This document shows positions 292 to 30,321 of a stretch of 33,528 nt of DNA, in pieces. Position numbers and translations under genes: made by a program. The stretch is from Bacteriovoracaceae bacterium (GTDB lineage: Bacteria; Bdellovibrionota; Bacteriovoracia; Bacteriovoracales; Bacteriovoracaceae), in contig CANFNL010000011.1 in the NCBI GenBank assembly GCA_947448205.1, positions 1-33,528 on the forward strand, written 5' to 3'. Below the pieces are notes generated by a model. The model was given only the letters and a program-made list of their open reading frames with translations, made no database searches and was not told the DNA's origin. Within the stretch, counting starts at the first letter, position 1. Each line of letters opens with the position of its first letter.

Positions 292-3200
292 TTAAATAGC
301 ACTTCCTGGAAATTTATAATCTTCTTCAGTGGCAGTATTAGGAGTCCATACTCCTTCCTGAAGCTCGCACTGATTTTGATTATTAAATTCACAGTATGCA
401 CCGGCCCAAGTACCACCAACTGCTAAGCAATCGGCCGATGAAGTTGGCCATGCACCACCACATGTTCCGCCAGATTTAGTCGAGCAATTGCCGCCTAAGT
501 ATTTTGCTGCAGCTCCAGAAGCATAGTGATCATCCCAATCAGCAAAGTTATTGTATGGATTAGAGAAGATATCTAATCCAGCATTATTCATTTTGGCAGC
601 AGGTGATGAAGGGCCTGAGTTGTCTATTCCATCACTAATTTTAAAATTTTCATCCCAGTCTCTAACATTAATTCTAATTCTCGCTTTTATTTCTTTTGCG
701 GAGTTTAGGCAGTAGAAAGAATAGTAAGGATTGGATTTAGCAAAGGGACTGGCCGTACTTGGTAGAGAGAAGACTGCTGATTCCCAAGTATTAAAATGAG
801 CATTGGAAGACGAGCACTGATTCTTAATAGTAGCATTGGCAAGTCTAATATTTGTTAAGTCCAGATGAGATATGGGAGAGGAATGCTCCCAGTTTTGAGT
901 TATTCCAGCTGAAGCAGCATAGACCATTGCTCGACTGCCCTTGTCAATTTGGCCGTCTGTTAATAAATCTCTAATTGGACCATTTATACAATTTGTTTTC
1001 TTTCCACCACAATATACTTTTGTCACAACCGGAGCGGAGGCAATGGTACAAGCTGGAGTAGCAGAATTGTCAAAAGACATGGTAATTGCATTATATTCGA
1101 CATAACCTTCATCACAATTTGGAGCAGATGGGTTAGACTCTGTTGTATAATAACTCTCGCATACATTTTTTGCTTCAGGAATGGTTCCACTGGTAAGACA
1201 GCCGGTATAGACGTTAACTCTGGATTGATATTTTGACGTAACTCCCTTTGATTGAGCAGGGCTGAAAGTATTTATATAGTAAGGAGCATATTCTATATAC
1301 TCGCAAACGCTAGGACCTGTAGTTGCTTGAAGTTTTAAGCCACTAAAGTAGAGATCTTCTTCTTCGGCATCAAGCAAGCAGCGAATATCGAGGGCTTTTG
1401 TCTGAGGTGATGCACTTTGAATATCACTGGCATTAATTCTACATTTTCTCGTTGCTTGAGTATCACCAACTTTGTGAAGCAAAAAAGAAGGTGTTTGGGT
1501 TTTATCTTTTATTTGAAAATAATCTCTTGCCTCTAGAGCAAAAACAAAACTTGATGATCCAATAAAATTTTGAGCCGTTAAAATATAATCTTTTCTAGGC
1601 GAGCTATAAGTTGCTGTTCCCGATATAAATCCAGTTTGGGTATCTAGAGTTAATCCTGCTGGGAGGGCCGGTGATATAGAAAAAACCAGATTATTACCTG
1701 CAGAAACAACCGCAGGTATCGTAAACTTTAGCCCTCTTTCTGTTAAGAAGAAATTGTCGTGTGTCACTGAGTTGATGGTTGTGCTTGCAGTAGCTGAAGA
1801 GATTGCTTCATCATTGTACACAAGATCATTAATACTAAATTCCTTAGCAGTTGGAAATAAGCTTAAATCACTTAAACTAATATCATTAAGGTAGAGATAA
1901 TTTCCTACAACTTTATGAGTATAAGCTCCTGCATGCTTATCTGTTGTAACATCGACACCTAAATTAAAAGAGGCTGCAGAGGCAACTCCAATTTTTAGTG
2001 CATCATTAGAAACGTTTAGAATTGTGGCGCTATTATCAAGCGTATCACCTTGGTAAAAAGTTTTTGATTGAGCAACAGAGTTTGCTGCTTGGCTTATATA
2101 GTTTACATAAAGAGTATCACTAACACCTGTCTGCACATAAGACACAACACCTTTTGCCCCAGCTCCAATTCCTGCTGTTGAATTAATATAATCTCCGGCC
2201 ACAAAGCCTCCAGTGGCACTTTGCTTAATAGCAGTATTGTAATATACAGGACCTATAGACCAGCCCTGTGTGGCAGCTTCACATGTCTCTTTAGTTGCAT
2301 AATTGGTATCGGTGCAAGAATTATCTGGAATGACAAAAGCTTTTTCACTTAAGAATAAATTTCCACTATCCAATTGTGTATTTTGGGTAAATGCACCCGT
2401 TATAATTCGCACAGCGATTTTATAGGGGTCGATTATTTTAATGATTATTCCGGAGGTTGAATTTGTCAGTGGTGGTACTATTGGAGCAAAAAGTGTTTCA
2501 CCTTCTTTGAAAAATGCGGTGTTTGAAACGGTAATAATTTGCTTATTTGCCAATGCGAGATCACTTGGACCAACAATCGAACTTAAATATATATCGGCAA
2601 AAACACTACCGGTTAAGTTAGTCGCCTGAATCGTAAATTTAGTTGAAGCCAATGAAGCCGCGAATGTTCCGGATATTATTCCGGTGTCTGGATCTAGCGA
2701 AACACATTGAGTTGAATCATTGGGATCAAAACACGGTAGAGCTGGTGAAATAGTGTATTTGATCCCATTTTCAGCATTGATTTCTGAAGTTGCAATTGGC
2801 ATCAAAGGTTTTATTGCATGGCCTACTTCGTAGACGTTTGTGGGGGTCGTAATAGTAAAATTATTAGTATAATATTGGTTATCATTATCAACTGAGGTCG
2901 TAGCATAAAATCCATTAGTTTGATCGATTATATCTATGATCGGATAAGACGTAGCACAAGAACCAGTTATATTATTAGCACATATACTTTCTGCTTTGAT
3001 AAAATATTTATTGTTTGCCGAAATATTTTCGACGTAGAGAGTTTTAAGAGAAGAATCAATTTTAAAGATCCGAGCAATTTTTGAACTATCTCCAGATTTT
3101 GTTATAAATGTATTAATAGTGAAAGGAGTTATGCTCGCAACTTTTATAGGAATGAGTCTATTGATTCCGATTTCATTCAAACTCGTATCTACAATTTTAG

Positions 3201-4044
3201 CTACGCTGGCTTCACCATCTTGAGTGAAGATCATGTTTGTTCGGGCGTAAGCGGCACTTGTTGTTGATGTTGTTAAAAGCGGACTAATCGCAGAAAGCGA
3301 GCCAGTGCCTGTCACCTTAAGTCTAATTTTTTCAGCTTGAGAGTAGGAGAGCTTTGTTAATTTTTTGTAGATACCAATATTTAAAGTTGTATAGATTGCC
3401 TTAGGTTCACGGGTAGCATTGCGATAAGACATTTTTATTCTAAACGGCACAGAGCTACCAACCGGATACCATTTATTATAGGAAGTGGTGCAAGCTGATT
3501 GAGATATATATTGATAATCAGGGTTGCTGCATTTGCTGGTTGCCGCATTCCAAGTTAACGGAGTAGATTCGCAAGTAGCCTGGTCTGGCGAAGCGAGATC
3601 ACTGCAAAAAGCAGTAGTTACAGTTTTTATGGCCAGAGGTACTCCTGTTATTGAGCAAGTGCTTGTCGTTAGTGCAATTCCTGCAGGAAGAGTAGCTGAA
3701 ATAGCATTTACCCCACTCACTACCAAATCACATCTATCAAAGAAAACAGTTTTTTTTGTACTATCACCAAGTGAGCCATCGACTACGGGGCTAGCACTAA
3801 GAGTTGTGCCGATGTTAGCACCAAAAGAAGAATCATTTTTATTGAAATAATAAAAAAATGTTGGCTCATCAAATGTGATTGCTGTACCAGTTGAATCTAC
3901 AATGGGTGGAGTAACGGTTGCCGATGAAGAAGACTTACTAGGGGAATCCTTGCTAAATTTTGTTAAGCTATCAGGTACACAACCAGATAGCAGCAATATT
4001 ATTGATAAGGGCGCTAGAATGTGATGTTTATTAAACGATTTCAT
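292..4044 (-). CDS. large secreted lipoprotein with putative Ig-like (He_PIG-type) segments and Cys/Trp repeats
   Basis: 1250 aa; lipobox LLSGC near N-terminus; LPAG(L/I)xL...TGxISGT motifs (e.g. ALPAGLTLDTQTGFISGTATY) typical of putative Ig domains; Cys-rich C-x(n)-C-x5-6-W segments. Confidence 0.85.
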   Translation of the reverse strand: MKSFNKHHILAPLSIILLLSGCVPDSLTKFSKDSPSKSSSSATVTPPIVDSTGTAITFDEPTFFYYFNKNDSSFGANIGTTLSASPVVDGSLGDSTKKTVFFDRCDLVVSGVNAISATLPAGIALTTSTCSITGVPLAIKTVTTAFCSDLASPDQATCESTPLTWNAATSKCSNPDYQYISQSACTTSYNKWYPVGSSVPFRIKMSYRNATREPKAIYTTLNIGIYKKLTKLSYSQAEKIRLKVTGTGSLSAISPLLTTSTTSAAYARTNMIFTQDGEASVAKIVDTSLNEIGINRLIPIKVASITPFTINTFITKSGDSSKIARIFKIDSSLKTLYVENISANNKYFIKAESICANNITGSCATSYPIIDIIDQTNGFYATTSVDNDNQYYTNNFTITTPTNVYEVGHAIKPLMPIATSEINAENGIKYTISPALPCFDPNDSTQCVSLDPDTGIISGTFAASLASTKFTIQATNLTGSVFADIYLSSIVGPSDLALANKQIITVSNTAFFKEGETLFAPIVPPLTNSTSGIIIKIIDPYKIAVRIITGAFTQNTQLDSGNLFLSEKAFVIPDNSCTDTNYATKETCEAATQGWSIGPVYYNTAIKQSATGGFVAGDYINSTAGIGAGAKGVVSYVQTGVSDTLYVNYISQAANSVAQSKTFYQGDTLDNSATILNVSNDALKIGVASAASFNLGVDVTTDKHAGAYTHKVVGNYLYLNDISLSDLSLFPTAKEFSINDLVYNDEAISSATASTTINSVTHDNFFLTERGLKFTIPAVVSAGNNLVFSISPALPAGLTLDTQTGFISGTATYSSPRKDYILTAQNFIGSSSFVFALEARDYFQIKDKTQTPSFLLHKVGDTQATRKCRINASDIQSASPQTKALDIRCLLDAEEEDLYFSGLKLQATTGPSVCEYIEYAPYYINTFSPAQSKGVTSKYQSRVNVYTGCLTSGTIPEAKNVCESYYTTESNPSAPNCDEGYVEYNAITMSFDNSATPACTIASAPVVTKVYCGGKKTNCINGPIRDLLTDGQIDKGSRAMVYAASAGITQNWEHSSPISHLDLTNIRLANATIKNQCSSSNAHFNTWESAVFSLPSTASPFAKSNPYYSFYCLNSAKEIKARIRINVRDWDENFKISDGIDNSGPSSPAAKMNNAGLDIFSNPYNNFADWDDHYASGAAAKYLGGNCSTKSGGTCGGAWPTSSADCLAVGGTWAGAYCEFNNQNQCELQEGVWTPNTATEEDYKFPGSAI

Positions 4045-6521: not shown

Positions 6522-7004
6522 TTACTGAACAATATAACGAGAAAAGAAAATACTTTTGACGATGGGTTTTTCAAGTGCTTTGTTGATTTCTTTTTTTAAT
6601 CGGTCTTCTAGTAAAATTTTACCAGTTAAAGAATTTAACTCATCTGCCCCCATCTTAGAAGCAATGGTTATAATTTTATCCTGAACAACCATTTGATAGG
6701 TTTTAATCACTCCAGCATCCTCTACTTTAAAGAGCACTAGGTGAACTTCTAATTCAACATAGCGCATTCTTTGATTAGCATTTGGATCTTTTGGAACTAA
6801 ACTAACGATTAATTTTTCTAATTTATAAAATGATGGAATGGCCTTGGGGTCTCCATCTTTTAAAAAAGCTTCACGCTCTTTATTTTCATCTATTGGCGGT
6901 CGCTTATACATTTTTTCAGTGTAATAGAAAAGGCCGATGACTGCCAAAGTGGTTAGCATCATCATGCCCAAAAGAATCATGTCGAGTTTTTTTTTGCCGG
7001 TCAT
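6522..7004 (-). CDS. FliL-like flagellar basal body-associated protein
   Basis: single N-terminal TM helix, then YKLEKLIVSLVPKDPNANQRMRYVELEVHLVL...IKTYQMVVQDKIITIASKMGADEL...LLEDRLKKEINKAL..PIVKSIFFSRYIVQ, FliL-family pattern. Confidence 0.75.
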   Translation of the reverse strand: MTGKKKLDMILLGMMMLTTLAVIGLFYYTEKMYKRPPIDENKEREAFLKDGDPKAIPSFYKLEKLIVSLVPKDPNANQRMRYVELEVHLVLFKVEDAGVIKTYQMVVQDKIITIASKMGADELNSLTGKILLEDRLKKEINKALEKPIVKSIFFSRYIVQ

Positions 7005-9156: not shown

Positions 9157-10566
9157 ATGATGCAAAAAAATCTTCGAAGAAAATATATTTCTTCCACAAT
9201 AATTGCCTTGATAATATCTGGTTGTTCAACAATAACACCTGCCAAGAAAGCAGTAGTCACTAATGCTTTAAATGTAAAAAAAGTGGTGCTCGATAATGGG
9301 CTAACAGTGCTTATTGCACCAAACCCCAAATTACCAATTGCTTCTTATTATACTCTCTTTGATGTTGGAGGTCGTTATGAAGTCAAGGGGACAACTGGAG
9401 CTACTCATTTTCTTGAGCACATGATGTTTAAAGGTGCTAAAAAATATGGACCAGGTAAATTTGATACACTTATAGAGCAAAATGGAGGAATGACTAACGC
9501 TTACACCACTAATGATTCAACCGTCTATTATCAAAATATACCAGCATCTTTTGTCGAGCAAATGGTTGATTTAGAGGCTGATCGACTCGAGCATCTTTTA
9601 CTAGAACCTTATAGTTTTGAAAGTGAGCGCAAGGTCATTTTTGAAGAAAGAAAAATGCGGTATGAAAATAGTCCAGATGGATTTTTATATCTGATGATGA
9701 TGAAAAAAGTTTTTGAAGGAACTCCTTACGGCCAATCTGTTATTGGAGATGTTGAAGACCTTAGTGCATTGACTCGCGATCAAGTTATGGACTTTTTTAA
9801 AACATACTATGCCCCTGACAATGCAATCCTTGCTATTGCCGGTGACGTGGATCCTGATAAGTTACTACCAGTTATTAAAGAAAAATACGGGGCAATCCCT
9901 CACTCTAGTGGTCTTCAAGAATTGAAGGCTAAAAGAGATGATCCTAAAAATTATGAATTTAAAGCAAAATTTGGGTCTGAATACCGCTTTTATGCCACCA
10001 ACCCGATTCCTAAATTTCAAGCGGCCTTTAAAGGTGAGAGGGCCGGGACGAGAAGGGCTTTTGTTTTAGATGTATTGGCCAATATGTTAGGAAACGGAGG
10101 AAGCTCTTATTTATCACAAAAATATGTGCGAAACGAAAAGCCTTTAATGAGTGAGATCTCTTTAACAAGTTATAATTTAAGGCACTCTGGAGTTTTTTAT
10201 TTTACTGGTGAGTTGTTGGAAAATGTTAGCTTTGAAAAAGTAAAAGATCAATTTGCTAGCGAGTTGAAAAATTTCTGTGCAGAAGGTCTGGATGGAAGGA
10301 CATTACAAAAAACGAAAAACCAAATATTATCTCAAGCTTATCAACAGATGAAAAGTAATGCCGGCATGGCCTCGACGATTATGTTGTACGAGAAAATATT
10401 CAATGATTATAATTATGGTAGCAAGGAAATGGAAATTTATAATTCTGTCACTGAAGCTGAAGTGAAAAAAGAGTGTCAAAGCATTCTAGTAGATTCTGCC
10501 CCCATTTTTATTTCAACTTGGGATAAATATCCAAAAAATCCAACTGCCTTAATGGAGACTAAATAA
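9157..10566 (+). CDS. M16-family zinc peptidase, lipoprotein
   Basis: lipobox LIISGC; inverzincin motif HFLEH and downstream glutamate region EERKMRYEN. Confidence 0.93.
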   Translation: MMQKNLRRKYISSTIIALIISGCSTITPAKKAVVTNALNVKKVVLDNGLTVLIAPNPKLPIASYYTLFDVGGRYEVKGTTGATHFLEHMMFKGAKKYGPGKFDTLIEQNGGMTNAYTTNDSTVYYQNIPASFVEQMVDLEADRLEHLLLEPYSFESERKVIFEERKMRYENSPDGFLYLMMMKKVFEGTPYGQSVIGDVEDLSALTRDQVMDFFKTYYAPDNAILAIAGDVDPDKLLPVIKEKYGAIPHSSGLQELKAKRDDPKNYEFKAKFGSEYRFYATNPIPKFQAAFKGERAGTRRAFVLDVLANMLGNGGSSYLSQKYVRNEKPLMSEISLTSYNLRHSGVFYFTGELLENVSFEKVKDQFASELKNFCAEGLDGRTLQKTKNQILSQAYQQMKSNAGMASTIMLYEKIFNDYNYGSKEMEIYNSVTEAEVKKECQSILVDSAPIFISTWDKYPKNPTALMETK

Positions 10567-11960
10567 TGAAATCAAGTTTACTAATGTTGACCACTCTTTT
10601 AATAAGTGCATTTCTTTCCGTAAAAACTTATGCAACTCCAAAAATTGAAGACAGTATTAAACATTTAAATTGGAATGGAATAGATGTTGTCTATATTGAA
10701 GACAATCGCTTTCCTACTTATGATCTTCTCATTTATTTTGCCGATGGTGCTTTAAGTGATGCTAAAGGCGAGTACGGTTCAACGGATCATGCTTTCAATT
10801 TAGTTGATTCTGGGACTGCTAAATTGAGCCAAAAAGAGATTATGGATCAATTTGAGTTTTACGGAGCTGAATTAAATTCTGAAATAACTCACGAGTATTC
10901 AACTTTATCTCTTTCGGGATTATCAAAAGACTTAACAACTACCGTGACACATGCATGCACTTTATTGAGAGAGGCAAGCTATCCGATGGCTACTTTGAAA
11001 TTAGAGTTAGATAAGGAGCGCACTGGACTTCAAAGTCTTGTCGCCAATCCTCAGGCTTTATCCGATCGGGTTTTTCGTGAATTGAGTCTTGCCAACACTC
11101 CGTATTCTTATCCTGTTTCAGGAAAATTGAGAGATCTTGATAGCTTAACACCTGCTATGTTGCGCTCGAAAATGGATTACTTTTTAGATAAAGTTAAAAA
11201 AAGAATTTATTTAACTGGGCCAAAATCAATTTTAAGTGTAGAAAAAATTCTTACAGAAAAATGTCAATTTAGTGGAAATCCAAATGATTATGTTCGTAGT
11301 GTGAATTATAAAAAACAAAAATTGAATCAAACTCAAGTAGCATTCGTTCCCGTTCCCGATGCCAATCAGGTTCAGGTAAAAGTTGGACGATTTTTAAATT
11401 TTGATGAAATTGGCGATCGCAGACTTGATACTCTCGCTACAGAGTTTTTAGGAGGAGGTTTCACTTCAGTTTTAATGAGAGAGGTAAGAGTAAAGCGAGG
11501 CTTAACTTACTCTATTAACTCTTATATTTCTTCTCAAAAGCAGTATGGTAGGTCGGGAATTTCAACCTTTACTAAAAACCAATCAATTAATAAATTAATC
11601 AAGGTTATTAGTGAGTCTATTGAAAAAATTCAAAAAAAGGGAATCAGTAACGAAGATTTAGAGAGATCAAGAGGAGCCATCCTAGGATCTCATCCATTCA
11701 AGTTTGAAAGTAATCGCGCATTTCTCTCGCAACTTCTTTATCTTGATCACATCGAGAGACCCTATGCAGAGTTGTTTGATTTTAATAATGCCGTTTTGAA
11801 GTACAACGCAATTGATGTAACTAAAAAAATTGACGAAATTTATGGCATGAAAAATCAAATTATCTTTGTATTAGGTGATAAATCAATTGGTGGAGAGTTA
11901 AAGAAAATGAAGCCTAGAGTAGGGAAATTGAGAGTTATTGATTACAAAAGTTTTATTTAA
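10566..11960 (+). CDS. M16-family subunit lacking the zinc motif (predicted non-catalytic partner)
   Basis: signal peptide; M16-like fold motifs (LREASYPMATLKLELDKER, GGGFTSVLMREVRVKRGLTYSINSY); HxxEH position reads STDHAFNLVDSG; TAATG coupling with upstream gene. Confidence 0.9.
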   Translation: MKSSLLMLTTLLISAFLSVKTYATPKIEDSIKHLNWNGIDVVYIEDNRFPTYDLLIYFADGALSDAKGEYGSTDHAFNLVDSGTAKLSQKEIMDQFEFYGAELNSEITHEYSTLSLSGLSKDLTTTVTHACTLLREASYPMATLKLELDKERTGLQSLVANPQALSDRVFRELSLANTPYSYPVSGKLRDLDSLTPAMLRSKMDYFLDKVKKRIYLTGPKSILSVEKILTEKCQFSGNPNDYVRSVNYKKQKLNQTQVAFVPVPDANQVQVKVGRFLNFDEIGDRRLDTLATEFLGGGFTSVLMREVRVKRGLTYSINSYISSQKQYGRSGISTFTKNQSINKLIKVISESIEKIQKKGISNEDLERSRGAILGSHPFKFESNRAFLSQLLYLDHIERPYAELFDFNNAVLKYNAIDVTKKIDEIYGMKNQIIFVLGDKSIGGELKKMKPRVGKLRVIDYKSFI

Positions 11961-12310
11961 AGAATTTTACTATTAATATCATCTTCCGTGTGTCCAATCA
12001 TGTTTACAACGGCACCCGGAAGAATTTCTAGAGATTTACAAATAATTTTACCTTCAAAATAGGCAGTCGGATAAATTGTAACATGGCCTTGAGATTTAAT
12101 ATCTCCTACAAATTCCCCGTAAATATCTAAGTCAAAACAGACAAGTGATCCTTCAGTGCTGGAGCCTATTTCCAAGACTAATTTTGCAGAATTCTGAACT
12201 TCGATTTCACCTTGGATCATTCCCTGGAGATGGGTTGGCCCTTTAAAAATAAAGTTTCCGGTGATACTTGTCATTTTTCCAATATAAGTGAACTCTTGAT
12301 TTTGTAGCAT
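11957..12310 (-). CDS. bactofilin (polymer-forming cytoskeletal protein)
   Basis: FTYIGKMTSITGNFIFKGPTHLQGMIQGEIEVQNSAKLVLEIGSSTEGSLVCFDLDIYGEFVGDIKSQGHVTIYPTAYFEGKIICKSLEILPGAVVNM, beta-helix bactofilin pattern. Confidence 0.92.
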   Translation of the reverse strand: MLQNQEFTYIGKMTSITGNFIFKGPTHLQGMIQGEIEVQNSAKLVLEIGSSTEGSLVCFDLDIYGEFVGDIKSQGHVTIYPTAYFEGKIICKSLEILPGAVVNMIGHTEDDINSKIL

Positions 12311-12321
12311 AATATTAACTC

Positions 12322-13140
12322 TTAAAATTTAACTAATAATTGAACACTTTGGTAATGGAGTAGATCGCCATTTTTAGCAAAGATATAGACAGTAAAGATA
12401 TAATTGCCAGCTTTTTTTGGTTTGTAAAAAACAGCTTCTACCGGACGAAAACGTTGAGTAGCAAATGTTTCACCAGAAGAGTAGTCAACTTGAGTTCCAG
12501 GAGAGTTAAGTGCTTGCTGGGGATAGACTTCAATGGCCAATTCATTTTTCATTAGAACAATGATGTGACCAGAGAGTTTTGCTTCGCCACCAGCTGCAGG
12601 AATAATATTAAATTGAAGATTAACTGTTTCTTTAGTGGAAATTGTTTTAAAGCCTGAGAGGGCCAAGGTTGTAGGTTTTGTTTTGTCTTTTTGTCCTTGA
12701 ATCGGTTTAAAAAATGAAAGAGTAGATAATCCAATTGAGCTTTGTACCGGATTCAAATGAGATGAGGTGCCTATTGGCGCTGCATTTACAACAGCGCTGT
12801 CAGATTTGGGCAACAGAGCTTTATTCAATTTTTCTTGAAGATCACTTAATTTCTTAGTGAGTGCAAGTTTTTCCTCTTCATTTTTTTGCATGTGCTTAAT
12901 GTAGGCATTTGCGCGAGCTTCAGCTTCTCGGGTTTTTGTATTTTGCCGGTAATTATCAAGAAGATGAAAAGGGCTGGTGTGGATTAAACCAATGGCACCC
13001 AATATTACAGCAATCAGTGTGATGGTTGGGAGCCCTACTATAAAAAAAAGGACTTTTGATTTTTTTAATTCAAAATATTTTGGTGAATCATTATTTTGAT
13101 TATAAATAATTGAAATAAAATCTTTATTGGCTTTTTTCAT
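12322..13140 (-). CDS. membrane-anchored coiled-coil protein with C-terminal beta-rich domain
   Basis: one TM helix (VLFFIVGLPTITLIAVILGAIGLI) followed by heptad region (NEEEKLALTKKLSDLQEKLNKAL); N-terminal layout resembles bactofilin-associated M23 proteins but no M23 HxH/HxxxD motifs seen. Confidence 0.7.
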   Translation of the reverse strand: MKKANKDFISIIYNQNNDSPKYFELKKSKVLFFIVGLPTITLIAVILGAIGLIHTSPFHLLDNYRQNTKTREAEARANAYIKHMQKNEEEKLALTKKLSDLQEKLNKALLPKSDSAVVNAAPIGTSSHLNPVQSSIGLSTLSFFKPIQGQKDKTKPTTLALSGFKTISTKETVNLQFNIIPAAGGEAKLSGHIIVLMKNELAIEVYPQQALNSPGTQVDYSSGETFATQRFRPVEAVFYKPKKAGNYIFTVYIFAKNGDLLHYQSVQLLVKF

Positions 13141-13145
13141 CTCGG

Positions 13146-14243
13146 CTAGTTATTGCCTTTTTTTGATTCACTATTTTCTTTGAAAGTTGAATCTTTAAAA
13201 AATCTCATTGATGGTTCAAATGCAATTTTATCGCTGCCTTCTAAGCCGTTCTTGGTAAAAACTTCACTAATAATTTTCCAGTTATAAGAGTCATCCTGTC
13301 TTAAATAGAGGATTTTTTTTCCAGCATCATTGATAGTGCTTGATTGGTATCTTTGCATAAATGTAACAATTGCATAATTTTTTGACTGTAAAATAGACAT
13401 ATTATCTAAGTCGATTTTTGGGGTTCCTGGATTGCTAAATACAGCTTTTTTATAAGCTTTGTAGTGAACAAAATTTCCTTTAATATCTTTGAATTCCGCA
13501 GGAGAATAATGAGACATATAAGACTCGATGTCTTTATTTTTCCAGGCAGCAAGCCAGCCTTCAATATTTTTTTTAATTTCATTTTTTTGAGCTTCGTGAG
13601 TTCTGTCATTTAAATAGACTAGGTCTTGCACAATAACAATTGGAGTTTTGTTTAATTCAATATATTTTGAAACATCTAAAAGATCATTATTGGCCGTTAC
13701 CACGCATCCTTTAGAATCAAGTCCTTTGTCAAGTCTTGCTTCATCATTAGTTGAATGAAGCCAAATTCCTGATCCTGTTTTCCCCATTCGTTGATCTACG
13801 GGATTTGGGTAGTCAGTGACAAAAGCTCCCGCACCGTAAATCACGCCTTGTGATCCACTTTTTTCAATCAATTGCTTATTGGTTAAAAAATTTGTGAAGT
13901 TATAAATTCCCTCCGGTGTTTTGAAATCACCTTCCGTGCCTTTGTCCCCAGATTTTTTGCCGGTGACTACTTGATAGGATTTTACTAATTCAGGGTGTCC
14001 GTCATTATTGCGGTAAAGGTGGAGTAAATGAGTCGACTTCTCGGCAATTAGGATATGGTGTGAAAAGAAATTATCCAGGGCAAGTAGAGGTGCTGGATAT
14101 AGCTTTTGACCTTCTTGGCTTAAAGCTGCATTGGAGGCAATAATTAAGCATAATGGGATCAATTTTGATATTTTCTTTAAAAGTCTACGACCGAAACTCT
14201 TTTTCATCGTTTTAAACCTTGTATAGTTACTTGGAATAGTCAT
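13146..14243 (-). CDS. L,D-transpeptidase-fold (YkuD) protein with C-terminal NTF2-like domain; candidate L,D-carboxypeptidase of the Csd6/Pgp2 type
   Basis: ILIAEKSTHLLHLYR..., GIWLHSTNDEARLDKGLDSKGCVV active-site region; C-terminal IEGWLAAWKNKDIESYMSHYSPAEF...YNWKIISEVF NTF2-like. Start could instead be ATG 14207 (MKKSFGRRLLKK...). Confidence 0.85.
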   Translation of the reverse strand: MTIPSNYTRFKTMKKSFGRRLLKKISKLIPLCLIIASNAALSQEGQKLYPAPLLALDNFFSHHILIAEKSTHLLHLYRNNDGHPELVKSYQVVTGKKSGDKGTEGDFKTPEGIYNFTNFLTNKQLIEKSGSQGVIYGAGAFVTDYPNPVDQRMGKTGSGIWLHSTNDEARLDKGLDSKGCVVTANNDLLDVSKYIELNKTPIVIVQDLVYLNDRTHEAQKNEIKKNIEGWLAAWKNKDIESYMSHYSPAEFKDIKGNFVHYKAYKKAVFSNPGTPKIDLDNMSILQSKNYAIVTFMQRYQSSTINDAGKKILYLRQDDSYNWKIISEVFTKNGLEGSDKIAFEPSMRFFKDSTFKENSESKKGNN

Positions 14244-14397: not shown

Positions 14398-16014
14398 ATG
14401 TCAGATGCAAAGAAAAATGTCTTCCAAGATACAGTCAATACTAAAATCCAAAGAAGATTCGATCTTGTCTTTGATAGATCTAATAAATCAAAATCCAGTT
14501 CTGATTTTATAAATATAGAGGCAGCCAATATGTTTCAGAATAAAAAACAAGAATTAACTTCAGTAGTTGAAGATAAAATAATAGACATTGATTTTGATCT
14601 AGATTCAAGAATTGATGAATCTGATATTCTAGAAATAAAAAATGATACAAATACTCGTCTGTCGGTAGTCCCAGATTTTAAAATAGATCAAACGTTACCA
14701 GAATTGAGTAATAAAGATGATTTTGCGATTGAATTTAGCGGTACTAATAATAAAACAGAAATTGCCTCAAAAAAGGAAAATCAAAATACTTCAAATTCAA
14801 GTAGTACTCTTGATTTAATGTTTGACGAAGCTATTCTCATTGGTTCACTGGCAATGAAAGAGGGGACTCAAAAAACAATCGTTTTTGACAAAAATCAACT
14901 CACGAATACAGAAAATGATTTTGATCCTTTTGTAGAAGATGAATTATTAGGGGAGAGTAAATTATCTGCCGAGTCTATGTCTACCGAAGAAGCTCTTGCC
15001 AATATGGAAACGACTATCAATGATATTTTAAAGCCTAATCGCTTTGATGCCACTGAAGAAATTGATTTGACTGAATTTAAAACGCAAGATCAAGCGGAAA
15101 TTACTTTCTATGGAGAAGCCAAGCAAATTGAGAGCATGGTTTTTAATCTAAGCCCACAATCTGAAAAAACCGACTCAAATGGTTTTGATTTGAGCTCTGT
15201 TGAATTTGCAGATAACGAAATTTACGATGAGATGGCCGCAGCCAATTCAACAACAAAAGATTATTTAGCCATTGAAAAAACGGCCATAAAACCAAAAGCC
15301 AATGTGCAATTGGTTGCAGAGATAGAGCCTCCACCGATTCAAACTATTCAGCAAAAAAATATCAATCTCGAAGGCCCTGTCCATCTTAGCGCTTCAGAGG
15401 AAACCCGCTTTCTTGCGACTATTAGGCAGCTAAGAGAGGAAAGAGAGGATTTATTAAGCCAGATTAAAAAGCATAAGGCTGAGGCTAAGGAGTTTGAACA
15501 AGATAATCTAACACTAAAGGCAGCACTCGATGAATCAAAAATTGAGATTTCAATTTTAAGAAAAAGGCATTTAGTAGAAATCGAAGATATGAAATACCGT
15601 CTATCTCTTAGTGACGAGAAGCGATTACTTGCAGAAGAGAGAGCTAAGTTATCTGAGAGCAAAAGAGAAAAGTTAGAGCAAAAAGTTCGAATTGATTTTA
15701 ATCAGGTAAAACTTAGAGAAAAAGAATTAGAAACAAAACTTGAAATGCTCTCAATTGACGTAGATTCTCAAGTTCATAGTCGTGATCAGAAAATTCTCGA
15801 ACTAAGAAGAAAAATAGACGCTTTAGAATTTAACATGGAAAATGTTTCAATTCGCGATCAGAAATCGCAAGATGACAAAAGAAAAGTTGAAGATAAATTA
15901 AACAAAATTATGAAAACGCTACGTTATTCAATAAAAAATTTAGAAGATGATATTGATCAAGCGGAGGACGATATTCAAGATGCGAGAAATGATGAAGATC
16001 GATCCAAGACGTAA
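14398..16014 (+). CDS. coiled-coil protein with acidic, low-complexity N-terminal half
   Basis: 538 aa, long heptad-rich C-terminal region (RQLREEREDLLSQIKKHKAEAKEFEQDNLTLKAALDESK...); acidic tail; no recognised family. Confidence 0.75.
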   Translation: MSDAKKNVFQDTVNTKIQRRFDLVFDRSNKSKSSSDFINIEAANMFQNKKQELTSVVEDKIIDIDFDLDSRIDESDILEIKNDTNTRLSVVPDFKIDQTLPELSNKDDFAIEFSGTNNKTEIASKKENQNTSNSSSTLDLMFDEAILIGSLAMKEGTQKTIVFDKNQLTNTENDFDPFVEDELLGESKLSAESMSTEEALANMETTINDILKPNRFDATEEIDLTEFKTQDQAEITFYGEAKQIESMVFNLSPQSEKTDSNGFDLSSVEFADNEIYDEMAAANSTTKDYLAIEKTAIKPKANVQLVAEIEPPPIQTIQQKNINLEGPVHLSASEETRFLATIRQLREEREDLLSQIKKHKAEAKEFEQDNLTLKAALDESKIEISILRKRHLVEIEDMKYRLSLSDEKRLLAEERAKLSESKREKLEQKVRIDFNQVKLREKELETKLEMLSIDVDSQVHSRDQKILELRRKIDALEFNMENVSIRDQKSQDDKRKVEDKLNKIMKTLRYSIKNLEDDIDQAEDDIQDARNDEDRSKT

Positions 16015-28753: not shown

Positions 28754-30321
28754 TTATACGTTCTTGTTATTTCTAAAATTTTATCAAAACTTAAATCTGG
28801 TTTTGGAACTTGGGAAACCGGTGCATTGGGAAGAGTATTTACATCATAATCTGTTTTAATGTTGTTATCTCTATCAATTCTATTTCTTAGTCCTTGCTCT
28901 GCTGTATACCATGCCATTTTATTAGCCGTTGATGAACAACTATTATTTCCAAGAATTCCCCAGCGAAGTTCTGCGCAATGGTATGGATCAAAAGAGAGAG
29001 CAAAAATATTTTTTAATATAAAATCCATATTGATTTTGAAATTTGCTCTAGCATTTACTGAGCAGGATTCTGATTTAGTTAAATAGATCTCTCTTAAATC
29101 TTTTACTAGGTCGACACCATGATAAATTATTTGTACAGAATGATTTTTATAACCACGAATAATTTTTTCTAAATAATCTTTAATTCCCCTTACCGATGCT
29201 TTTAAGCGAGCATCTCGCGCTGGGGTCGCATAAGCTTCCCAATCTCCATCAGCACCGTAAATATTTGCTGGTAAGAAATCAGGATGAGGGGATTCTTGAA
29301 TCATCGACGCAAGCGATGTGTTGACAGCTTCTTCTCGGTATAAAATATCTTGGCAGAGTTCACTTAATTGATCGGTAAATTCTCCAAGGGGATTATAGAT
29401 AATGATGCCCTCTGCTAGTACCGCCCTAACATATTCGTAAAATGAAACTACTTGACCTTTAAAAATAAAAGGCTCTGTTTGATATTGAATGAGTGAATAG
29501 TTAGGCAATTCATAATTTCTTTTGGCGATGATGCTATTTTCACTTTGATAATAAGGTCTAAAATTTGAAAATCCTCCTCCTATTTGAAGCCTTGAGCGAG
29601 CGAATTTTTCACCGTAGGTAATTGCACTAAGACTATTGTCGGGATGAGCATCGATGAGATAAATTTTTCCATTGGATGTTACATCATAGACGACAGCGAC
29701 ATGTCCATTAGGATCATAAAGCACAGTTCCTGGAGCAATCGCATCTCTATTTATTGCCGTTGGATAGGTATCTCTGAAAAAATAACCACTATCACTTGTT
29801 GAAGCATTAGTTCTAAACATCGCACTCGATACTGTATCATTAATTTTTTGTAATACTTGATTTATACTTTCACCGTCAAAGACTTGATCCTTGCCGGTAA
29901 TAATATTTCCAAAGCGGCTATAGCGGATGTCTGTCGCCAAAAAGCTTAAACTTGTGGCCGCCATTAATTCGCTCTCAAATGAAAAAGGCAAATCATTCAT
30001 CCAGCTAAAATAGGCGCGTAAAACATAGGGAAGATCAGCACAGTCGGAGTAGATAAAATTTAATCTTCTAGGATTAAGGGCCGCATAGCGAGGATTGGCC
30101 ACTGGACTTCTTAAACATTGATCAGTAGTGTGGCATAGATTATTTTTTCGAGCTATTCCAAGGGTATGAATAAATTGTTGATAGCTTAATTCGAATTGAT
30201 CATTCCAAGAAGTATTTTGAATCCGCCAGTACAGGCTTTTCGTTGATTTGGCAAAGGCACTAGATCCATAAGTGCAAGTCATGAGCAATATAAAAGCTGT
30301 GGTTAGGAAATTTTTATTCAT
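28750..30321 (-). CDS. secreted protein with possible NlpC/CHAP-like cysteine peptidase/amidase core
   Basis: signal peptide MNKNFLTTAFILLMTCTYGSSAFA; candidate Cys (SDCADLPYVLRAYF), His (PNGHVAVVYDV) and Asp (IYLIDAHPDN) in papain-like order; AGGAG before ATG 30321. Confidence 0.7.
   Translation of the reverse strand: MNKNFLTTAFILLMTCTYGSSAFAKSTKSLYWRIQNTSWNDQFELSYQQFIHTLGIARKNNLCHTTDQCLRSPVANPRYAALNPRRLNFIYSDCADLPYVLRAYFSWMNDLPFSFESELMAATSLSFLATDIRYSRFGNIITGKDQVFDGESINQVLQKINDTVSSAMFRTNASTSDSGYFFRDTYPTAINRDAIAPGTVLYDPNGHVAVVYDVTSNGKIYLIDAHPDNSLSAITYGEKFARSRLQIGGGFSNFRPYYQSENSIIAKRNYELPNYSLIQYQTEPFIFKGQVVSFYEYVRAVLAEGIIIYNPLGEFTDQLSELCQDILYREEAVNTSLASMIQESPHPDFLPANIYGADGDWEAYATPARDARLKASVRGIKDYLEKIIRGYKNHSVQIIYHGVDLVKDLREIYLTKSESCSVNARANFKINMDFILKNIFALSFDPYHCAELRWGILGNNSCSSTANKMAWYTAEQGLRNRIDRDNNIKTDYDVNTLPNAPVSQVPKPDLSFDKILEITRTYN

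Follow-up and report, generated by a model that had tools for sequence, protein, structure and literature searches.

A stretch of 33,528 nucleotides (nt) from a Bacteriovoracaceae bacterium (assembly GCA_947448205.1, contig CANFNL010000011.1), hereafter the window, is contig C11 of a 2.6-Mb metagenome-assembled genome (MAG) and carries a cluster of three minus-strand genes, named here ldt, mid, and bac. The cluster is tight, with gaps of 5 nt between ldt and mid and 11 nt between mid and bac, exactly as given in the initial annotation of this DNA, and encodes an enzyme of the Bd1075 type, a bitopic membrane protein, and a bactofilin, respectively (Table 1). No terminator-like sites were seen within the cluster, and a promoter-like site just 5' of ldt (14295-14266) was not above chance expectation. 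The early assignment of bac as a bactofilin was borne out by PF04519, which matches it at 65.6 bits over model positions 1-94 of 98, above the curated cut-off of 27.9, and bac is predicted to share the bactofilin property of forming polymers at the inner membrane. The genome holds two bactofilins, and the operon-borne bac is distinct from the other (L043:5121-5471; G000:C1 ~29120-29470), which immediately follows parA- and parB-like genes and precedes ATP synthase genes.

The order and strand of ldt, mid, and bac were constant in the fetched loci, with spacings mostly below 30 nt or small overlaps. With mid as the sole query, 34 of 57 genomes gave a match, 33 of them from the window's own family (f1); a profile survey covering 291 genomes of the phylum found mid in 145. 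In 85 of the 90 f1 genomes with mid, the gene is flanked directly by ldt on its upstream side and by bac on its downstream side; the exceptions are G121, in which mid starts at a contig edge, G211 and G263, which showed no ldt next to mid, and G027 and G291, which have a shortened mid match and no bac listed beside it. This synteny is far beyond chance, and a conserved neighborhood with the bactofilin in relatives is what the initial annotation had made its proposal depend on beforehand. Protein distances within f1 correlate at 0.90-0.93 among ldt, mid, and bac, and those of mid against bac at 0.84 over 68 loci. These values fit joint inheritance, although species descent alone would raise them too. 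Seven f1 genomes possess neither mid nor ldt. Four of these, all of the genus g45 (G096, G124, G169, and G242; 88-99% complete), are also devoid of every profile-detectable bactofilin while retaining MreB; they are candidate natural tests of the module, and straight-rod cells are predicted for them.

Table 1. Position of the ldt-mid-bac cluster, its protein domains and motifs, and conserved neighboring genes in the window (aa, amino acids; TM, transmembrane).
Feature	Coordinates	Strand	Evidence
ldt: 365-aa enzyme of the Bd1075/Csd6/Pgp2 type with a hydrophobic, signal-like segment at the N-terminus	13146..14243	-	PF03734, PF24125; 7o21
YkuD catalytic domain of ldt, residues 64-204; H163 and C180 catalytic; V182 at the Bd1075 V158 position	13632..14054	-	PF03734, alignment
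Cds6_C (NTF2-like) domain, ldt residues 223-327; Y299 aligned with Bd1075 Y274	13263..13577	-	PF24125, alignment
FEPSMRFF motif at the ldt C-terminus beyond the NTF2 domain (family form FxPSxRFF)	13197..13220	-	Alignment
mid: bitopic protein, 272 aa, without Pfam or NCBIfam family	12322..13140	-	Conserved family alignment
mid TM helix, predicted at about residues 30-52 following a short cytoplasmic tail	12985..13053	-	Hydropathy, window protein and 70 family members
Predicted helical stretch of mid, residues 58-108, probably coiled-coil	12817..12969	-	AlphaFold2 secondary structure, low confidence
C-terminal beta domain of mid, residues 135-272	12325..12738	-	Alignment; C-domain model
bac: bactofilin, 117 aa	11957..12310	-	PF04519
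Divergent neighbor, 538 aa, coiled-coil C-terminus; conserved context, not counted in the module	14398..16014	+	Homologues in 34 of 40 other-family mid-bac loci
fliL-like gene, conserved context shared with Bd1075 loci	6522..7004	-	PF03748
Two M16 peptidase genes, convergent with bac, context shared with Bd1075 loci	9157..11960	+	Pfam

The ldt protein had been described from the first reading as an L,D-transpeptidase (LDT) fold with an NTF2-like C-terminus, and both domains exceed their cut-offs, YkuD (PF03734) with 59.8 bits and the Cds6_C NTF2-like domain (PF24125) with 77.2 bits. Its top solved relative is 7o21, the structure of Bd1075 (158 bits, residues 42-331, spanning both domains), followed by Pgp2 and Csd6, and the residues H163, C180, V182, and Y299 are conserved in the ldt family. 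Bd1075 is known to set the curvature of Bdellovibrio, and it reaches the convex face of the cell by means of its NTF2 domain (PMC8938487). From its Bd1075-type domains and active site, ldt is predicted to be an LD-carboxypeptidase that trims peptidoglycan tetrapeptides to tripeptides. YkuD-fold enzymes vary in the reactions that they catalyze, and ldt gives a weak match to LdtF/DpaA/YafK (29 bits against a cut-off of 365); a different activity, either transpeptidation or YafK/DpaA-type cutting of protein-peptidoglycan links, by which the operon would strengthen or detach the envelope and not bend the cell, is nonetheless very improbable beside the likeness to Bd1075. The closest named relatives by ldt are Bacteriovorax sp. 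and Bacteriovoracaceae MAGs with 73-77% identity, and translation may start from the second methionine (14207), which agrees with the N-termini of close relatives.

The position of Bd1075 W303, a residue of the NTF2 pocket, is occupied by F329 in the window and by F in most of its genus, by W in the rest of f1, and by W or F in the other compared enzymes of the phylum; W303 as a Bdellovibrio-only residue was ruled out, since W is seen elsewhere in the phylum. The FxPSxRFF tail is present in nearly all f1 enzymes and in those of loci L101 and L102, and it is missing from loci L084-L100. It was also considered as a mark of operon-borne enzymes and rejected, because L101 and L102 carry the tail outside such an operon. 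These two (in genomes G130 and G136, respectively) are f1-like enzymes of another family, as close as some f1 members (E ~1e-135), that lie outside mid-bac loci, possibly as a result of horizontal transfer or contamination.

The loci L084-L100 connect ldt to Bd1075 itself. L084 was identified as a Bdellovibrio-type locus from the 627-bit match of its enzyme to 7o21, and in all 17 loci a fliL-like gene adjoins the enzyme gene, followed in most by two M16 genes. This fliL and M16 neighborhood is common to the window, so ldt is probably the positional orthologue of Bd1075, a call made from gene position. Several Bdellovibrio genomes carry two to four such enzymes.

The mid protein was described in the initial annotation as a one-TM coiled-coil protein, in agreement with a hydrophobic helix at about residues 30-52 and with a region that is predicted to be helical up to about residue 108. 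No match was found to mid among the Pfam and NCBIfam models, and a profile search of the PDB returned TM and coiled-coil noise only. The cytoplasmic tail is conserved among family members, while the invariant residues all lie in the C-terminal domain of approximately 138 residues (e.g., G223, E224, R232, G258, and D259). Structure predictions used shallow alignments of the window protein and related loci; the full-length AlphaFold2 model from five close sequences was poor, with a predicted local distance difference test score (pLDDT) of 53, and the C-terminal domain alone was modeled with middling confidence as a beta-sandwich (pLDDT 66; predicted template modeling score 0.66). Foldseek matched this model to immunoglobulin (Ig)- and fibronectin type III (FnIII)-like domains at E-values of 0.003 or worse, weak enough that the fold class alone is claimed: in the model, the domain resembles an Ig/FnIII-like beta-sandwich.

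The origin of mid was sought among known bactofilin partners. Bactofilins bind the cytoplasmic tails of bitopic wall proteins such as LmdC (PMC10945521), PbpC (PMC12448750), and Csd5 (PMC9507126), the last of which also brings the bactofilin CcmA to the envelope (PMC9507126). Since the LmdC tail binds a bactofilin, mid might have kept the TM and coiled-coil portion of an LmdC-like M23 protein and exchanged the peptidase for a beta domain, so that it now serves the enzyme as an adaptor. N-terminal to the TM helix, the tail of mid can indeed be aligned in register with that of the TM/coiled-coil M23 protein encoded in this genome; the profile-profile similarity of their N-terminal parts is weak, with a probability of 46-71% (71% for residues 1-110). 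A hidden Markov model of the mid tail recovered no M23 protein from 1090 open reading frames, no Pfam match to M23 exists in mid, and its C-terminal domain has no profile similarity to M23. The M23 protein used for this comparison (L038:1480-2610; G000:C154) is found throughout f1 and is encoded next to secA with no bactofilin beside it. The descent from an M23 partner put forward in the initial annotation is therefore improbable, a DUF6776-like layout being the simpler source, to which architecture, gene position, and a co-linear alignment all lean.

A Tepidimonas genome that was the source of another LDT+NTF2 match has no bactofilin and was set aside as a parallel enzyme-bactofilin case. In the bactofilin loci of the order of this genome, Burkholderiales (L134-L163), a same-strand gene for a TM/coiled-coil protein of approximately 245 aa stands directly before the bactofilin gene in 29 of 30. 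Two of these proteins were run against Pfam, and both are DUF6776 (PF20567); the adjacency of DUF6776 and bactofilin is a strong synteny for a family of unknown function. Full-length profile comparison of mid with the DUF6776-type family gave 92.9-94.5%; coiled coils inflate such scores, so the C-terminal domain was compared alone. The two domains were co-linear over ~109 columns with p ~2e-4 to 6e-4 for five of seven reference members, the best values leaning low because several reference sequences were tried, and the comparison was weaker for L046 and L064 (p 0.001-0.009). Reversed and unrelated controls gave at least 0.005 and one column shuffle 0.004. PF20567 matches neither mid itself nor any direct bridge to it across the 291 genomes. 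The similarity is suggestive of a remote relation of mid to DUF6776 and not of membership.

Beyond f1, mid and bac usually stand together without the enzyme. In the loci of other families, a bactofilin gene follows mid directly in 39 of 40, L057 being the exception, and ldt lies beside mid in one of 40 (L053). Homologues of the divergent 538-aa neighbor, of a metallo-beta-lactamase gene (32/40), and of an alanine dehydrogenase gene (27/40) occur in these loci, and such shared neighbors across families indicate the same locus with ldt present or absent. The mid-bac pair is the older core, and ldt would be an addition or a retention in f1. The suggestion of the initial annotation that mid is an adaptor survives in part: mid cannot be an adaptor for ldt alone, since mid-bac occurs mostly without the enzyme.

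Several observations touch these neighbors and the window at large. The 538-aa protein shares the C-terminal coiled-coil motif VR-D---V--REKEL with the conserved mid-bac neighbor of other families, and several of its other-family homologues have a response-regulator-like N-terminus that is seemingly missing from the window protein. At 292-4044, the window encodes what is probably a large envelope protein of 1250 aa, in which a lipoprotein-like N-terminus is combined with a He_PIG Ig domain.

Taken together, ldt-mid-bac is given an even chance of being a cell-shape operon, most likely for curvature, in which mid couples the bactofilin to the enzyme. We infer the role in shape by analogy with Bd1075 and other bactofilins, together with a physical coupling of mid, bac, and the enzyme. 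The bactofilin would polymerize beneath the inner membrane, where the short cytoplasmic tail of mid would bind it; mid would cross the membrane, so that the strip of envelope lined by the bactofilin is also marked in the periplasm, by the coiled coil and the beta-sandwich. This periplasmic part would either attach to wall material or offer the enzyme a docking site, probably for its NTF2 domain, and the enzyme would bend the cell by trimming tetrapeptides to tripeptides along one side. In this scheme, mid-bac would be the core and the enzyme a client that f1 added or retained. The topology of mid is that of LmdC, PbpC, and Csd5, and its gene adjoins that of a bactofilin; by this analogy and synteny, mid most likely holds the bactofilin at the membrane and marks a periplasmic site. 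That a curvature enzyme would be the client of mid-bac in f1 is suggested by the operon.

A less probable but serious contender is that mid-bac forms a self-contained envelope-cytoskeleton unit for membrane anchoring, polarity, or placement of wall synthesis, with ldt a co-transcribed old neighbor that is positioned without mid. The evidence that weighs against coupling argues for such a unit: the near-constant mid-bac pair outside f1 with the enzyme beside mid in a single locus; the absence of mid-bac beside the Bdellovibrio enzymes (L084-L100), together with the profile survey, which gave no credible match to mid in Bdellovibrio-type genomes, where Bd1075 is targeted without it; and the report that Csd6 of Helicobacter pylori does not interact with CcmA, Csd5, or Csd7 (PMC9507126). 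Against this stand the grouping of all three genes in nearly every f1 genome with mid, their ends often overlapping or abutting, and the joint loss of ldt, mid, and bac in several genomes.

A literature search, with thin coverage of subscription papers, found no description of a bactofilin operon with a Bd1075/Csd6-type enzyme, and DUF6776 was mentioned in one unrelated paper. The gene combination and the mid family appear to be new, although all the components either fall into a known kind or resemble one. The mid family, perhaps with DUF6776, is a candidate type of bactofilin partner besides the M23 peptidases. It is tentatively proposed, as a rather unlikely extension, that mid and DUF6776 constitute one undescribed bitopic superfamily coupling bactofilins to periplasmic wall machinery in distant phyla, the client in Bacteriovoracaceae being the curvature LD-carboxypeptidase. 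If true, this superfamily would give a mechanism for the one-sided placement of a periplasmic enzyme; the Bd1075 study noted the lack of any known mechanism by which a bacterial protein is directed to a single lateral side wall (PMC8938487). The operon suggests a way in which predators of this family could use an internal cytoskeleton to guide an enzyme that cuts the wall on the other side of the membrane, and its union of a Bd1075 relative with a bactofilin and a protein that spans the membrane makes the question of side-wall targeting genetically testable. In H. pylori, cell shape is set by both the corresponding enzyme and the bactofilin, although the enzyme reportedly does not interact with the bactofilin complex.

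Among known systems, Bd1075 shares with the window enzyme the YkuD and NTF2 layout, the catalytic His and Cys, the V158 and Y274 positions, and the fliL and M16 neighbors, while the window differs in its mid-bac operon, the F at the W303 position, and another C-terminal tail. LmdC-BacA is like mid-bac in having a bitopic protein with a short tail, a TM helix, and a coiled coil encoded in an operon with a bactofilin (PMC10945521); mid, unlike LmdC, has no M23 domain, and in the window the enzyme is encoded separately and has a different fold. The DUF6776 proteins resemble mid in length (~245 aa), in the succession of TM helix, coiled coil, and C-terminal domain, and in the position of their genes directly upstream of a same-strand bactofilin gene, whereas the cytoplasmic tail differs and PF20567 does not recognize mid. 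Csd5-CcmA of H. pylori would be alike, if the model is right, in having a bitopic protein with a cytoplasmic part that binds the bactofilin and a periplasmic beta domain that acts at the wall; Csd5 differs in possessing an SH3 domain and in belonging to a complex with which Csd6 reportedly does not interact, and the likeness would be one of architecture.

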